This document shows, piece after piece, positions 23,732 through 30,652 of a stretch of DNA of 44,842 nucleotides. The DNA is from Deltaproteobacteria bacterium (GTDB taxonomy: Bacteria; Desulfobacterota; GWC2-55-46; DRQE01). Where the stretch lies: assembly GCA_024278765.1 (NCBI GenBank), contig JAJRSM010000015.1, positions 1 to 44,842 of the forward strand. Reading direction: 5' to 3'. Every line of letters begins with the position of its first letter. The stretch's first letter is position 1. A program made the position numbers and the translations under genes. Under the pieces are notes generated by a model. It saw only the letters and a program-made list of their open reading frames with translations. It did no database searches and had not been told where the DNA came from.

Positions 23732-24661
23732 TTACTCAGACCCTGCACTAGAGTTTTGCTCCGCGCATGATTGCCTTTTAAAAAGACGCCCAAGGTCATC
23801 AAGCAGGGTATAGGCGACAGGGACGACAAAGAGGGTCAGAAGTGTCGAAACAAAGAGCCCACCTATTACGGCAATCGCCATAGGGGCACGGGATTCACTG
23901 CCCGGCCCGACCCCGATAGCCGTTGGCAACACCCCGAGCATTGTCGATAAGGCCGCCATAACAATAGGGCGCAGCCTGGACAGGGCCAGCAAGAAGGACG
24001 GCCTCCCTTACACCCAACCCTCTGGCCCTGAGCGTATCAGTATAGTCAACTAGTAAAATCGAGTTCTTTGTGACCAGCCCTACAAGCAGCGTTATACCGG
24101 TCAGGCTATATACATTGATCGTATTACCCGTAAAACAGAGCGCACCGAGTGCGCCGACTATACTAAGGGGCAGGGCGATCATAACGGTAGATGGATGAAT
24201 CAAACTCTCAAACTGCGCTGCCAGCACCATATAGGTAATAAGCTATGGCCAGACCAAAGACCATAACCATGCTTACAAAGGACTCTTTAAACTGCTCGGC
24301 ACGTCCGCTAAGTGTTGTCGTATAGCCCTCTGGCAGGACCTCCTCTGCGATCACCGCAATATCATCCAAGCCCAAGCCCTATAGCAGCAAAATAGCTCCT
24401 TATCTCCGGCATACCAGAAAGGACATCTTCATTGAGTTTTAGTTTTTCATTGGTATATTCAATGGAAGATCCGACCGGCGTCTGGAAACTAACCATAAAA
24501 GCAGAGGCGTCTTCAGCAGGCATAAATTCTTTACCAAGCCCCTACCACGCAAAGATACTAGAGGCAAAAACTTATAACGCCAAAAACAATAATGGAGATC
24601 ATCGTCATCAGGGTAAGGACCGGTCTTCTTATCGCTACCACAGGTAATATCATCTTTATCT
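23732..24661 (-). pseudogene. RND efflux pump, degraded remnant
   Basis: About 930 bases remain of a gene that is normally about 3.1 kb. The 5' end reads MILPVVAIRRPVLTLMTM with the first membrane helix, then hits TAG. Next comes KEFMPAEDASAF, which belongs after about 500 further residues, so a large internal deletion joins the two. Reading then shifts at least three times (near 24378, 24240 and 23985). Fragments such as LITYMVLAAQFESLIHP, GLVTKNSILLVDYTDTLRARG, and RLRPIVMAALSTMLGVLP in three frames are clear RND helices (the last four membrane segments). The adaptor gene directly upstream (5 bases away) is intact. No functional pump can be made. Confidence 0.9.
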
Positions 24662-24666
24662 AACCT

Positions 24667-25884
24667 TTAATTCTGCGTTCCTGTTTTACGCTCACCAACG
24701 ATGACCCGCACGCTTGCGCCGTCGTCCAGATCATAAGCACCTTCTATCACTACCAGCTCACCTGTCTTTAACCCGCTACTTATTACAGCCATTGCCCCAC
24801 GTCGTTCTAAAAGGTCAACGCTTCTCATCTCTACTTTGCCACCAGCCTCTACAAAGACTATGGTCTCGTCGTTGCGAGTAAGTACGCCGCCTTCGGGGAC
24901 TAGAAACAAACCTTTTTTAATGCCGGTAACAATCGTAACCTCAGCAAAAAGCCCGGGGCGAAGTTCTTTCTTCTGGTTTTTTATCCGTGCCTTTATCTCA
25001 AAACTACGGTTCTTTGGATCTACCTCAGGGCTGATGAAATATATAAGCCCGCTATAGATCTTGTCTTCTCCAGTAGTGCCAACCGTAAGCGTTACCTCTT
25101 GGCCCGGCCTTAACCTTCCTAGAAACCGCTCGGGGATGGTCGCAAAGACCTTTAACGAACCCATATCAATTAGGCGAAAGAGCCTGTCGCCTTCCTGTAC
25201 GTAGCTGCCTACAGAGACGTAACGCTTGGATATAGTCCCTGAAAACGGCGCACGAATGCGTGAGTCCGCAAGCTCGCGGGCCTTTAAAAGCAGCTCTGCC
25301 TTTGCTGCTGCCAGAGCAGAGGTCAGAGCATCACGCCTGGACAGGGCCGAGTCATAGTCCTCTTGGCTGACCGTGCCCTCGCGCAAAAGCCCACTTTTGC
25401 GAACGAGATCTTTCTCTGCAAAGGCAAGCTCCGCACCCCTCTGATCAAGCTCTGCGCCGGCCCGGTCTCTCTCCAGAACGAATTTTTCTTCATCTAAAAC
25501 AACCAGAGCTTGGTCGCGCGCGACCTCGTCGCCTTCGTCAACAAAAAGCCCGGTGAGTTTTGCCGAGACCTCGGCACTTACCATAACCTCTTCATTGGGC
25601 TCAAGCGTGCCGACGGCAATAATGCTAAGCGGCAGGTCCACACTCTTGACCGCAACCGTGCGCACCTTAAAACCCGGAGCTGGGCTCTTGGATTTATCTG
25701 CGCCTTTCTCGCCAGAGCTTGCCTGCCCGATCTGGCTATTCTGACTAGTCTGGCTGGGCTGACTATCCTGACTAGTCTGGCTGGGCTGGCTACTTACGGC
25801 GATATCTTTTTCTTTCTCTCCTTTGCAGCCGTAACCAAACCCAACTACAACAACAATCAATGCAACCAATAATATCTTTTTCAT
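24667..25884 (-). CDS. RND efflux adaptor (membrane fusion) lipoprotein
   Basis: Periplasmic adaptor of 405 residues. Lipoprotein signal MKKILLVALIVVVVGFGYGC with lipidated Cys20. A Ser/Gln-rich low-complexity linker (about 31-57) made of repeated SQPSQTSQ follows, then the biotinyl-lipoyl half (VMVSAEVSAKLTGLFVDEGD), a coiled-coil hairpin (about 150-205), the second lipoyl half (SRIRAPFSGTISKRYVSVG) and a beta-barrel. All domains and the reading frame are intact. Start ATG at 25884 follows AAGGAGAC. Its cognate pump, immediately downstream, is destroyed, so the protein must either work with another pump or be on the way to loss. Confidence 0.88.
   Translation of the reverse strand: MKKILLVALIVVVVGFGYGCKGEKEKDIAVSSQPSQTSQDSQPSQTSQNSQIGQASSGEKGADKSKSPAPGFKVRTVAVKSVDLPLSIIAVGTLEPNEEVMVSAEVSAKLTGLFVDEGDEVARDQALVVLDEEKFVLERDRAGAELDQRGAELAFAEKDLVRKSGLLREGTVSQEDYDSALSRRDALTSALAAAKAELLLKARELADSRIRAPFSGTISKRYVSVGSYVQEGDRLFRLIDMGSLKVFATIPERFLGRLRPGQEVTLTVGTTGEDKIYSGLIYFISPEVDPKNRSFEIKARIKNQKKELRPGLFAEVTIVTGIKKGLFLVPEGGVLTRNDETIVFVEAGGKVEMRSVDLLERRGAMAVISSGLKTGELVVIEGAYDLDDGASVRVIVGERKTGTQN
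25741..25793. repeat. 27-base direct repeat in the adaptor gene
   Basis: Two copies of a 27-base unit, identical for at least their first 20 bases, encode the SQPSQTSQ linker repeats. Slippage-prone coding repeat. Confidence 0.7.
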
Positions 25885-25988
25885 AAAGTCTCCTTACATA
25901 ATTAAATACCACCGCGCAAAGAACCCCAAAGCAAATCCAGAAGATCTTGGCCTAAAGAACCTTAAAAGAAAATATTTTAGAGCTGCCA

Positions 25989-26726
25989 TCATCCGCCATG
26001 AGTCGCGCCCTGCTTTATCATCCCGGTGAGGTAGAGACCAACAAAGCTCTCTACCACATGCTCGCTAGATCTGTGGAAGACCTTTTTAAAATCGTATATC
26101 TCCTGCATTACGCAGTAATTACTTATCATTCCCATAAAGCCCCTAGCTGCCAACTCGGAATCGATCTGCCTGAAAGTACCTTCTTTTATCAGAAGATCTA
26201 TTCTTCTAACAAGGTAATCCGTGATCTCGCTGCATTTAGACTCAAAAAATATCTCAGAGAACCTATCACCTTCCAAGGCACTGTACATAAGCAGACGCGC
26301 AAATGATATATCTTCTTCATACATTGAGATAAAGAATCTGATTAACTCAGCGAATATTTCTACCCCGTCCTTTTCTTCAAGTCTGCTGATAAGAATAAGC
26401 GAGCCTGTCTCATCATTGCAGCACCTGTCGATGATCGCCTCAAAGAGGGCCTACTTACCAGAGAAGTGCTTATATATAGTTGCCTCACTTACACCGACCT
26501 CTCTGGCTATCTCCTTAGTGGTCGTCCCCCTACTACTAAAGCCCTTATCCGAGAAGAGCCTGCTTTCCGCAGCGACTATCTGCTCGCGTAGTTCTATACC
26601 CTTCATACGTGATTTGCCGTTTATGCCCGGACGGGTAATGCCCGGATGGGCCACGCCAGGATGGGCCACGCCCGAATGGGCTTTTTTTGAAGCACTGGAG
26701 TCTATTTTTTTCGCTCTGGCTGCCAT
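25989..26726 (-). pseudogene. TetR-family repressor gene with an amber stop
   Basis: A single 246-codon frame, open except for TAG at 26453-26451 (codon 92). Upstream of it lies a normal TetR DNA-binding domain: REQIVAAESRLFSDKGF, then TTTKEIAREVGVSEATIYKHFSGK. Directly after the stop the frame continues ALFEAIIDRC, so TAG replaces the Glu codon of the usual K-E-ALF sequence (GAG to TAG, one base). The C-terminal ligand domain after that is uninterrupted. An odd N-terminal 35-residue extension has HPGVAHPGI-type repeats. The gene precedes the adaptor and ruined pump on the same strand, so it was probably their local repressor. A 91-residue product lacking the dimer domain would not repress normally. 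Confidence 0.88.
26626..26685. repeat. Four 15-base tandem repeats in the tetR N-terminus
   Basis: Units of 15 bases (consensus CCCGGATGGGCCACG) at 26626, 26641, 26656 and 26671; the middle two differ at one base and the outer units are more diverged. On the coding strand they give repeated H-P-G-V-A. Confidence 0.75.
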
Positions 26727-26767
26727 AGCCTCATACCCCTAAAAGAAATAGCTTACTATTATCTACA

Positions 26768-26787
26768 AAGTAAGCATTTACTTACTT
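26768..26787. promoter_or_regulatory. Probable TetR operator
   Basis: AAGTAAG-CATTTA-CTTACTT, a perfect seven-base inverted repeat, 41 bases upstream of the tetR start and between two divergent genes. Form and place fit a TetR-family operator; a further half-site, CTTACT, lies at about 26752. Confidence 0.65.
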
Positions 26788-26872
26788 AAGAAAGATTAAT
26801 TATATATCGTGACAAAAAACATGTCAATTGCACAGGGCATTGACTGAAAATAAAATATCACAAACAGAACCT

Positions 26873-26901
26873 TTGACAAATGTCTCAATACAAACTAATA
26901 T
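26873..26901 (+). promoter_or_regulatory. Strong sigma70 promoter before the ferritin-like/receiver pair
   Basis: TTGACA (26873-26878), 17-base spacer, TAATAT (26896-26901). Start near 26908, about 38 bases before the ATG. Confidence 0.8.
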
Positions 26902-26945: not shown

Positions 26946-27830
26946 ATGCGCAAAGCCATAGAATGGCTCATCCATATGGAAGAGGAATCAGGTCAGGTCT
27001 ATAATGAGGCCGCGAAACTATTTAAAGATGATTCTGAGTTTTGCAAGTTACTGAATGGTCTTTCTAAAGACGAAAATCAGCACTACCGGCTCTTATTAAA
27101 GGCCCAACAACATTTAGAGAGTAATGCGGCAATCTCGCTGGAGCCGGCCTACATGTCCTTGGATGATAAAACCAAGAAGAAGATTAAAAAACCTCTAATT
27201 GATTTTATAAAGGCTATAAACAAAGGCAAGCTCTCTAGAGCTGAGGTTCTCGAACATATCGTAAAGATAGAATACTCAGAGTGGAACGACCTCTTCGCCT
27301 ATATTCTGGGCTCTATGAAGGACACCACCAAGGACTTCATAGATATTGCGACCAATATCCAACAGCACCGGCGTCGCATTGAACGCTTCCTGGAGAACAA
27401 TATCGAACACGCTGAGTTTCTCAAGGCAATCAAACCACTACCGACTCTGTGGAATGAACGGATACTTATCATCGAAAGTAGCGATGTAGTTGCAAATATG
27501 CTATCGACAATATTAAACAAAGAAGGCTCTATAGATATAGTCACCGACGGTAACACAGCACTTAAAAAGATCAGCCATACATTCTACGCAGCAATAATAA
27601 GTGCCGTAGATCTACCAAAGCTAGACGGGATAGAGCTATACAAGCAGGCCCTTAAAAAATTCCCTGATATAAGAAAACGCTTTATCTTCTTTACCAGCAA
27701 TAAAGGCCACATATCTTTCTTTAAAAAGTGCGGAGTTAAATACCTCATAAAACCTACTCCCATAAATGAGATAAGAGGTTCGGTAATTAGTGCCTTGGAG
27801 ACCTCCTACTTAGGACTTAAAAAATCTTAA
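26946..27830 (+). CDS. Ferritin-like helical domain fused to a degenerate receiver domain
   Basis: A 294-residue protein with no named family that I recognise. Residues 1-160 are helical and rubrerythrin-like: EEESGQVYNEA in helix 1, the ExxH pair Glu43/His46 in KDENQHYR, Glu109/Glu112 in helix 3, but helix 4 has Ile138 where the Glu of its ExxH (with His141) should be. Residues 170-290 are a receiver domain in which the acidic pocket is ESSD and the phospho-acceptor Asp is Ala220 (IISAVDLPKLDG), while Thr250 and Lys269 remain. So it cannot be phosphorylated in the normal way. The ATG at 26946 has GGAG nine bases upstream; a TTG at 26922 is less likely. A paralogue follows 85 bases on. Confidence 0.75.
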   Translation: MRKAIEWLIHMEEESGQVYNEAAKLFKDDSEFCKLLNGLSKDENQHYRLLLKAQQHLESNAAISLEPAYMSLDDKTKKKIKKPLIDFIKAINKGKLSRAEVLEHIVKIEYSEWNDLFAYILGSMKDTTKDFIDIATNIQQHRRRIERFLENNIEHAEFLKAIKPLPTLWNERILIIESSDVVANMLSTILNKEGSIDIVTDGNTALKKISHTFYAAIISAVDLPKLDGIELYKQALKKFPDIRKRFIFFTSNKGHISFFKKCGVKYLIKPTPINEIRGSVISALETSYLGLKKS

Positions 27831-27915
27831 GCTCTCCCTGAAAAAAACTAAATTAATACAGACGCAGCACAGCCACTACATGCGGTTATAATAGCAATTA
27901 AAGACAACCCTCAAC

Positions 27916-28788
27916 ATGGATCTTATGAAGACACTACTTAAGCAACTGATAAAAATAGATGAACTGACAGGTGACTTCTACGGTCAGGCAATCAACGAAA
28001 AACAAAAAAACTACGATACCAATGCGCTATTTGCCGGCCTGCAAAGAAGCAGACTAAAGAGCAAATGGATACTACTTAGCGCAATCAAGGAGCTGCCCGC
28101 AACTATGCCGGCTCTCCTTGACCCTGCCCGCGTAGAAGAACTCAAAGAAGAATGCTGCGCAGTATTTAACAAGATCACTGTTCTTGCAGGCCACTGCTCC
28201 CCGAATGCAAAAGAACTATTGGAGGTTACGTTAGAGATAGAGCTGACTCGACCCGGCAAACTATACTCAGAGGCCATAGATGCTTTAAGAAGAAACTCAC
28301 GCACCTTTATCACGCTTGCTGCCACCACACAGTGGCGCAGACGCCTGCTCCAGTCCTATATAAAACACAGATACGAATATACCAGCCATCTTGAGCTCTT
28401 TGAAAAACTACCACGTGTATGGACGGAAAACCTGCTGATCGCCGACGACTCGATAGCTACAACCACGCTTCTGGCCGATACACTGTCATGCGAAGGCTCT
28501 GTTCATACCGCTGGCAACGGGATATCGGCCCTGCGTAAATTAGAGAAAAAATACTTTGCAGCTATCATATCCGACGTATCTATGCCGCTTATGGGCGGCG
28601 TTGATTTTGACAGGTCTGCCGAAAGAAAGTACCCTGGGATAAGACGACGCTTTATCTTCTTCACCGATACGGCATCAATGAATGATATTGATTTCTTCAA
28701 GATCAATAAGATAAACTACCTGCCAAAACCCTCTTCACTAAAAAACATAAGAGAGGCCGTCTTAAAGGTAATGGGCGGTACCATATAG
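27916..28788 (+). CDS. Ferritin-like helical domain fused to an intact receiver domain
   Basis: Paralogue of the preceding gene, 290 residues, same domain order. The helical half aligns from Met4 (KTLLKQLIKIDELTGDFY against RKAIEWLIHMEEESGQVY) but the ExxH is gone: RSRLKSK replaces KDENQHY, and no other ExxH is present, so no diiron site is expected. The receiver half is complete: IADDS acidic pair (Asp177/178), phospho-acceptor Asp220 in IISDVSMP, Thr250 and Lys271. A histidine kinase should be able to phosphorylate it; none is in the window. No output domain follows the receiver, so the helical domain is the likely output or partner surface. The ATG at 27916 or 27925 could be the start; neither has a strong ribosome-binding site. 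Confidence 0.75.
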   Translation: MDLMKTLLKQLIKIDELTGDFYGQAINEKQKNYDTNALFAGLQRSRLKSKWILLSAIKELPATMPALLDPARVEELKEECCAVFNKITVLAGHCSPNAKELLEVTLEIELTRPGKLYSEAIDALRRNSRTFITLAATTQWRRRLLQSYIKHRYEYTSHLELFEKLPRVWTENLLIADDSIATTTLLADTLSCEGSVHTAGNGISALRKLEKKYFAAIISDVSMPLMGGVDFDRSAERKYPGIRRRFIFFTDTASMNDIDFFKINKINYLPKPSSLKNIREAVLKVMGGTI

Positions 28789-28888: not shown

Positions 28889-28964
28889 GGGGCTATAGCT
28901 CAGCTGGGAGAGCGCTTGACTGGCAGTCAAGAGGTCAGGGGTTCGATCCCCCTTAGCTCCACCA
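28889..28964 (+). tRNA. tRNA-Ala (anticodon GGC)
   Basis: A complete 76-base cloverleaf with the CCA end encoded. The acceptor GGGGCTA pairs with TAGCTCC (one G-U), D stem GCTC/GAGC, anticodon stem CTTGA/TCAAG with loop CTGGCAG (anticodon GGC, reads GCC), T stem AGGGG/CCCCT with TTCGATC loop. Own promoter and terminator, single-gene unit. Confidence 0.98.
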
Positions 28965-29471: not shown

Positions 29472-29897
29472 ATGAAGGTAATGTTCTGTCATGATGGTGA
29501 AGAAATGGGGCAGAAAGCCTTAGAAACGGCGGTTGATTTTTTTAAGCCACACAAAGCCGACATGATCATACTATGCGTAAATAACGATGTCGCAGATGCC
29601 AGTATGGAGGTCGACTGCATCACAGAAGAATTCCAGAAAGAACACAAAGCAAACATAGACAAGTCAGCACAATGGGTCGCAGAGCACGGAATGGATGTCG
29701 ATGTTATTATGGCTACAGGCGACCCGAGGGAGATGGTAATAGCTGCTATTGAAAAGAAAAATCCGGATGTCGTAGTAATCGCCAGAAGAAAAAAGAGTGC
29801 GAGAGAGAGTGCCTTTCGTAAGAGTCTTAGCGCGTACCTCGTAAAGAATGCAGCATGTAATCTGTTTATAATGGGACCAGAGAGCTATAGCGACTAA
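29472..29897 (+). CDS. UspA-family universal stress protein, ATP motif lost
   Basis: 141-residue single USP domain with the Rossmann-like start MKVMFCHDGEEMGQKAL. The usual ATP signature, Gly-2x-Gly-9x-Gly-Ser, is replaced near residues 104-118: the glycines are Ala, Lys and Lys (ARRKKSARESAFRKS), so ATP binding is doubtful and it belongs with the non-ATP-binding type. The end NAACNLFIMGPE matches the family. Strong ribosome-binding site GGGAGGA before the ATG and a strong terminator behind; a one-gene unit. Likely stress or signal role, not defined further. Confidence 0.82.
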   Translation: MKVMFCHDGEEMGQKALETAVDFFKPHKADMIILCVNNDVADASMEVDCITEEFQKEHKANIDKSAQWVAEHGMDVDVIMATGDPREMVIAAIEKKNPDVVVIARRKKSARESAFRKSLSAYLVKNAACNLFIMGPESYSD

Positions 29898-30043: not shown

Positions 30044-30652
30044 TCAAACTGCCTTATCCGAGCCCCCTTTAATATGCTCCTTGGTCGCTATCATAACAGG
30101 GATTGACTTTAAGACCTCTTCAATATGTTTTATGGCGACCTCCGCACCCCTGAGATCCTCCTTATCCAAGACGTCCTTGCCAAGAGCTGCACCCACAGTC
30201 TGCAACTGACGCTCTGTACCATTACAGGCCTCTTTAATAACCTTCATAATCTCTTTCAAGGCCGTAAGCTCATCTGCGCTCGTAAGCACGATGGCCCGCT
30301 CTATCTTCTGCACAAGCTTCTTGTCGTCTATTGGTTTTGTTATAAAATCAGCTCCACCTGCCTGAATAAACTCGACCGCACTATCAGGCACCCCCTCGGT
30401 CGTCATCATAATAACCGGCAGGTACGGATATCTGGCACGGACTGCGCGAAAAAACTCGAGACCACTCATCTCCGGCATAATCAGATCCGTAATAACTATA
30501 TCAAAACAATCATGCTCCAGAACCAGCAGAGCTGCATCACCACCTTCGGCTGCCTGGACCATATAGCCTGCGCGACGCAACATCTGCTCGACCATAACCA
30601 GCATTGTCTTTTGGTCATCGACCACTAAGACCTTAATAACAGAATCAACCAT
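30044..30652 (-). CDS. Response regulator with helical C-terminus, no DNA-binding domain
   Basis: 202 residues: an intact receiver domain (about 7-122) with VVDDQ acidic pair, phospho-acceptor Asp in IVITDLIMPEMSG, Thr in MMTTEG and Lys in FITKPID. The remaining 80 residues are helical and highly charged, with no helix-turn-helix or enzymatic motif. It resembles chemotaxis-type or diffusible regulators (CheY-like). No kinase gene lies nearby. It converges on the uspA-like gene. The C-terminal tail does not match a family I recognise. Confidence 0.82.
   Translation of the reverse strand: MVDSVIKVLVVDDQKTMLVMVEQMLRRAGYMVQAAEGGDAALLVLEHDCFDIVITDLIMPEMSGLEFFRAVRARYPYLPVIMMTTEGVPDSAVEFIQAGGADFITKPIDDKKLVQKIERAIVLTSADELTALKEIMKVIKEACNGTERQLQTVGAALGKDVLDKEDLRGAEVAIKHIEEVLKSIPVMIATKEHIKGGSDKAV

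Follow-up and report, generated by a model that had tools for sequence, protein, structure and literature searches.

What does it mean when two neighbouring paralogues, of a kind that ordinarily carries a metal site and a phosphorylation site in one chain, have each kept the site that the other has lost? The question is raised by two adjacent genes, here called P1 and P2, on contig JAJRSM010000015.1 of a deltaproteobacterial genome (assembly GCA_024278765.1; G000 below). They lie within the window, the whole 44,842-nucleotide stretch of DNA that was analysed. Both are on the + strand, 85 bp apart, and their products are 28% identical. Their parts are as follows.

26946–27830, + strand: P1, copy 1, an ORF of 294 aa; ferritin-like domain with the full family metal-site set, followed by a pseudo-receiver
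26946–27425, + strand: ferritin-like domain of P1, residues 1–160, with E12, E43, H46, E109, E112 and H141 all there (from profile score, invariant columns and AF2 helices)
27456–27809, + strand: pseudo-receiver of P1, residues 171–288, with Glu177-Ser178, Ala220, Thr250 and Lys269 (from PF00072 and AF2)
27474–27479, + strand: Glu177-Ser178 of P1 (codons GAA AGT), replacing the receiver Asp-Asp pair
27603–27605, + strand: Ala220 of P1 (codon GCC), replacing the phospho-acceptor Asp
27916–28788, + strand: P2, copy 2, an ORF of 290 aa; metal-free helical domain followed by a complete receiver
27916–28404, + strand: helical domain of P2, residues 1–163, with predicted helices as in P1 and the metal-site residues gone except for E109
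28429–28773, + strand: complete receiver of P2, residues 172–286, with the Asp-Asp pair, Asp220, Thr and Lys

A Pfam scan recognised a receiver (PF00072) at the C-terminus of P1 (E 3e-8, 34.2 bits against a cut-off of 30.2) and in P2 (E 2e-9, above the cut-off). Rubrerythrin (PF02915) was matched weakly by P1, with an E-value of 0.0067 for the whole protein and 4.5e-4 for the N-domain alone, and the 21.0 bits obtained are below the curated cut-off of 22.8; the scan found no rubrerythrin match in P2. AF2 models made with a 53-member alignment gave mean pLDDT values of 91.2 for P1 and 88.9 for P2, with the elements of secondary structure in the same order.

Relatives were sought with P1 in 117 related genomes and with the alignment in 63 genomes of P1's class. 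Full-length relatives with the same two parts were present in most of those genomes, one to several in each, and the N-domain alone, run against 395 genomes of the phylum, picked up strong members in seven that lie outside the class. With P1 alone as the query against named genomes there was one weak match, to the receiver part only. P1 and P2 belong to a lineage-specific family in which a ferritin-like four-helix domain is joined to a C-terminal receiver. All the parts are known domain types; no description of the fusion family or of a reciprocally degenerate pair was found in the open-licence literature searched.

The key positions were then tabulated for 70 family members, P1 and P2 included. 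All six metal-site residues, four Glu and two His (E12, E43, H46, E109, E112 and H141), are present in 60 of the 70, and all 11 positions (these six and five in the receiver) are intact in 49, a pattern that exceeds chance similarity. When 52 N-domains were aligned with P2 left out, E43, E109, E112 and H141 were invariant and E12, Y19 and H46 were conserved at 96–98%. Judged from these residues, the N-domain is expected to hold two irons.

Against this norm P1 has six of the six metal-site residues and a dead receiver site, with Glu-Ser for Asp-Asp and Ala220 for Asp, Thr and Lys being retained. Its receiver is a pseudo-receiver of the aspartate-less kind: the fold is recognised and the catalytic residues are gone. 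P2 has all five receiver positions, with Asp220 encoded by GAC at 28573–28575, and one of the six metal-site residues: E109 is kept, Asp stands at E12, and R, S, R and R stand at E43, H46, E112 and H141. Absence of the phospho-acceptor Asp is confined to five of the 70 members (P1, L053, L101, L103 and L104), and the combination of an intact receiver with an erased metal site was found in P2 alone. A sequencing error behind Ala220 was considered and rejected, as P1 also has the Glu-Ser substitution and three catalytic positions are changed.

The original prediction, made from the DNA letters, stands in much of its detail: the shared fusion of a ferritin-like helical domain with a receiver is supported by Pfam, PDB profile comparison and AF2, and the missing phospho-acceptor of P1, the complete receiver of P2 and the lack of an ExxH motif in P2 (R and S at positions 43 and 46) were all as described. 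For P1 it correctly listed Glu43 and His46 but gave an incomplete inventory, omitting the rest of the six-residue set and missing the loss of the acidic pair. Ile138 of P1, said to mark a lost helix 4 Glu, is not a loss: among 63 aligned members this position is I, M, V, L, S, T or F, and none has Glu.

Some other members also have altered sites. In L101, L103 and L104, from three genomes, the metal site has lost residues (A or S, L and K at E12, H46 and E112) and the receiver has G177, Glu220 and Tyr250. L053, from genome G009, combines a complete metal site with a receiver that is dead (His-Asn, Cys220, His269); its sister copy L065 has kept Asp220, Thr and Lys, making this a second instance, though a partial one, in which receiver chemistry was given up by one copy.

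The N-domain was compared with known folds. In the AF2 model of P1, helices 2–25, 30–59, 98–109 with 113–124 (broken) and 130–150 appear to fit helices A, B, C (broken) and D of a ferritin-like bundle, with one extra. The extra helix, 74–93, is in the crossover between B and C, and E109 and E112 are at the break in helix C; the six putative ligands would converge in space. A profile of the N-domain compared with the PDB matched 2fzf, designed diiron bundles and ferritins, mainly over helices A and B, with 2fzf and the designed bundles as the best of the solved structures. As in rubrerythrin and ferritin-like diiron proteins (PF02915), helix A has Glu...Tyr, helix B ExxH, helix C ExxE and helix D His, and helix C of P1 (E-Y-S-E-W-N-D-L-F) is similar to its counterpart in the rubrerythrin of the same genome (E-N-Y-E-W-T-D-M-Y). 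Unlike rubrerythrin, the family has no helix D Glu (138) and no rubredoxin domain, and it has the extra helix 74–93 and the fused receiver; in a profile–profile comparison the N-domain aligned only weakly with local rubrerythrins.

Fold searches of the PDB and a viral library gave, among the matches listed, receivers and one PhyR chain. This chain, 9by5 (Foldseek rank 45), gave the only alignment among the matches listed to span approximately the whole query, with a TM score of 0.35. PhyR likewise has an N-terminal helical domain and a C-terminal receiver, but the N-domain of the present family bears a Glu/His site and has no sigma-factor match in the Pfam scans. An N-domain of the HPt or PhyR type was rejected, because no such domain was matched in Pfam and because the Glu/His residues, being invariant, point to a metal site. 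Alternative folds such as HPt had been named in advance as a threat to the ferritin-like assignment. PF02915 is matched by 34 of the 52 family N-domains (best E-value 1.6e-7).

On these sequences the metal domain may act as a sensor or as an enzyme under phospho-control. The second possibility reverses the direction of the signal: the ferritin-like bundle would be an enzymic or iron-handling output, such as a peroxidase or ferroxidase, switched by phosphorylation of the receiver, and P2 would regulate a constitutive P1. In its favour, input is the normal role of a receiver, conservation of the metal-site residues is as strict as in an enzyme (the four invariant residues above), and PhyR provides a precedent, albeit at a low TM score, for a helical output placed N-terminal to a receiver. 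A rubredoxin domain, however, feeds electrons to rubrerythrin and the family has none, and the Glu of rubrerythrin helix D is missing in every member sampled. This reversal is considered unlikely.

It is quite possible, and is the explanation favoured here, that labour has been divided between the paralogues by subfunctionalisation, P1 being the metal-site half and P2 the phospho half, and that the two are probably read together. An alternative is that each copy has specialised independently after duplication, P1 as a diiron protein that does not depend on phosphorylation and P2 as an ordinary orphan response regulator with a new role for its helical domain, so that the two would have a common past, and perhaps a common promoter, yet separate mechanisms. 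The N-domain of P2 is the most diverged of the 70: its profile score of 38 bits is the lowest, that of P1 being 180 bits (rank 30 of 70; median 176), and on a fixed tree the branch lengths of P2 are 2.49 for the N-domain and 1.01 for the receiver, those of the two P1 domains being 0.65 and 0.68. In addition, L053 and the L105–L108 group have dropped receiver residues without a metal-dead partner. On the other hand, P1 and P2 are still adjacent and in one orientation, and each has kept exactly what the other has lost. Independent specialisation is a serious but somewhat unlikely alternative.

The two receivers score 130–132 bits (rank 58–59; family median 151). As the score of the P1 receiver is within the family range, its catalytic residues were replaced on a kept fold, with no general erosion; pLDDT in the P1 pseudo-receiver is mostly above 94. 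Degenerate relatives are also under purifying selection, with dN/dS of 0.01–0.31 in both domains for L105–L107, which have lost receiver residues, and for L101, L103 and L104, in which both sites are hit (0.13–0.31 for these three). Missing catalytic residues need not, therefore, mean a dead gene.

The surroundings of the pair bear on whether it is simply decaying and on how it arose. The flanking features are these.

23732–24653, - strand: RND pump fragments of the flanking efflux operon
24667–25884, - strand: membrane-fusion protein (MFP) of the flanking efflux operon, intact
25989–26738, - strand: TetR-family regulator gene with an in-frame stop, the upstream border of the shared locus
26873–26901, + strand: promoter-like TTGACA-17-TAATAT before P1 (consensus match only)
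28889–28964, + strand: tRNA-Ala (GGC), the downstream border of the shared locus

G000, G005, G001 and G003 belong to one family, and in all four the gene or genes of interest are flanked by a divergent TetR/TolC/MFP/RND efflux operon on one side and by tRNA-Ala(GGC) on the other. In the window this operon (23732–26738, - strand) is decaying, only the MFP gene being whole, and a TolC gene was not found within the window; the portion of the operon read in G005 looks whole. The decay of the operon makes relaxed selection possible, which counts against a division of labour.

The locus as a whole could then be eroding, with P1 and P2 turning into pseudogenes and losing their sites by neutral change. 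The TetR stop, the RND fragments and the lack of TolC in the window are in keeping with this, as is the terminal branch of P2, at 1.87 the longest in the tree. However, neither frame is interrupted over its roughly 290 codons, the metal site of P1 and the receiver site of P2 are complete, the P1 receiver keeps its fold, Thr and Lys, and the profile scores of both receivers stay in the family range, so that neutral decay is quite improbable.

Upstream of the family gene, TTGACA-type sites were also seen in the three syntenic loci of G005, G001 and G003 (as consensus matches only). The promoter-like site of the family gene is separate from the palindrome on the TetR side, so its expression need not depend on TetR. 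That palindrome, AAGTAAGCATTTACTTACTT, is of the TetR type and lies, within 26768–26827, just downstream of a perfect sigma-70 consensus on the - strand (TTGACA-17-TATAAT, 26827–26799); a longer and cleaner version, GTAATAAGTAAGCACTTACTTATTAC, is found at L072.

On the tRNA side, a universal stress protein (29472–29897) and a C-terminally extended receiver protein (30044–30652; PF00072, 9e-30) are encoded just beyond the tRNA gene, and G005 likewise has a universal-stress-like gene on this side. In G001 an integrase-like gene (L052, 5123–6292) is found beside the tRNA-Ala gene that follows the family gene, which suggests that this tRNA gene is an integration site. Across the class the neighbourhoods of family genes are diverse, with histidine kinases in some and no general theme; no histidine kinase gene adjoins the P1/P2 pair. 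In two separate groups (L059/L069/L078/L085 and L084/L092) the family gene has a gene for MsrA (peptide-methionine sulfoxide reductase) close by, a possible hint at a link with oxidative stress.

The shared locus holds a single copy in G001 and G003 and a tandem pair in G005, the copies of which are 47% identical and have both sites intact. An intact pair at the same locus makes an intact pair a likely starting state, and the complementary loss is most simply placed in the G000 lineage. Direct duplication of P1 and P2 and a one-to-one correspondence with the G005 copies could not be told apart by trees and AU tests, the branch of P2 being too long: a clade of P1 and P2 is not rejected (AU p 0.40), and the topologies compared gave AU p values of 0.07–0.40.

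A further tandem pair, in G017 at a different kind of locus, also has both sites intact in both copies. The original prediction had looked to other adjacent pairs for the same pattern, and intact copies in both had been named beforehand as the outcome that would tell against it; its claim of complementary losses is real when measured against the family norm of two intact sites but fails as a conserved two-part system. The only pair that speaks for a maintained design of adjacent complementary partners is that of G000 itself, and both other adjacent pairs found speak against it, making such a design highly improbable. The complementary pattern is a derived feature of G000. No second genome of the window's genus was found in the searches, nor a second species with a complementary pair. 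Since chance alone would put the two losses, one of each site, in opposite copies half the time, a pattern from one genome is suggestive but not proof.

Precedents exist for the separate elements of a division of labour. Pseudo-receivers have been defined and exemplified (PMC12632262, PMC4395418), and P1 resembles these aspartate-less receivers in having a PF00072 receiver without the phospho-acceptor Asp or the acidic pair; it differs from them in being fused to a diiron-type domain and in being encoded beside a paralogue whose receiver is complete and whose metal site is dead. Partnership between a pseudo-receiver and a receiver, and coincidence detection, have a precedent in BldM/WhiI, a heterodimer of two related regulators that acts independently of phosphorylation as a joint coincidence detector (PMC12632262). 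BldM and WhiI bind DNA, however, whereas P1 and P2 have no DNA-binding domain, and contact between them is hypothetical.

If labour is divided, the following mechanism is the most probable. An ordinary family member combines, in one chain, a ferritin-like (rubrerythrin-type) bundle having a four-Glu/two-His site with a putatively phosphorylatable receiver. In G000, P1 has kept the metal site together with a folded pseudo-receiver, and P2 the phospho-receiver together with a metal-free bundle. P1, binding iron, would be the half that responds to redox state, oxygen, peroxide or iron, and P2 would be phosphorylated by a histidine kinase encoded elsewhere. The two signals would be integrated on a shared target or else by direct contact in a heteromer, between the two bundles or between receiver and pseudo-receiver. 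A physical complex of P1 and P2 is plausible. It is doubtful, on the other hand, that the one-protein diiron and phospho-receiver sensor has been split into two obligate partners forming one mixed bundle/receiver complex, in which metal or oxygen state and kinase input would be read by separate subunits and the pseudo-receiver and metal-free bundle would serve as interaction modules.

The pair bears on the role of bacterial pseudo-receivers, which is an open question (PMC12632262). In at least 70 copies of the family a diiron-type domain shares a chain with a phospho-receiver, so that one molecule may read both iron or redox state and two-component signals. In the G000 pair nature has carried out a separation-of-function experiment, each copy lacking one site, and the roles of metal and phosphate could be assayed apart.
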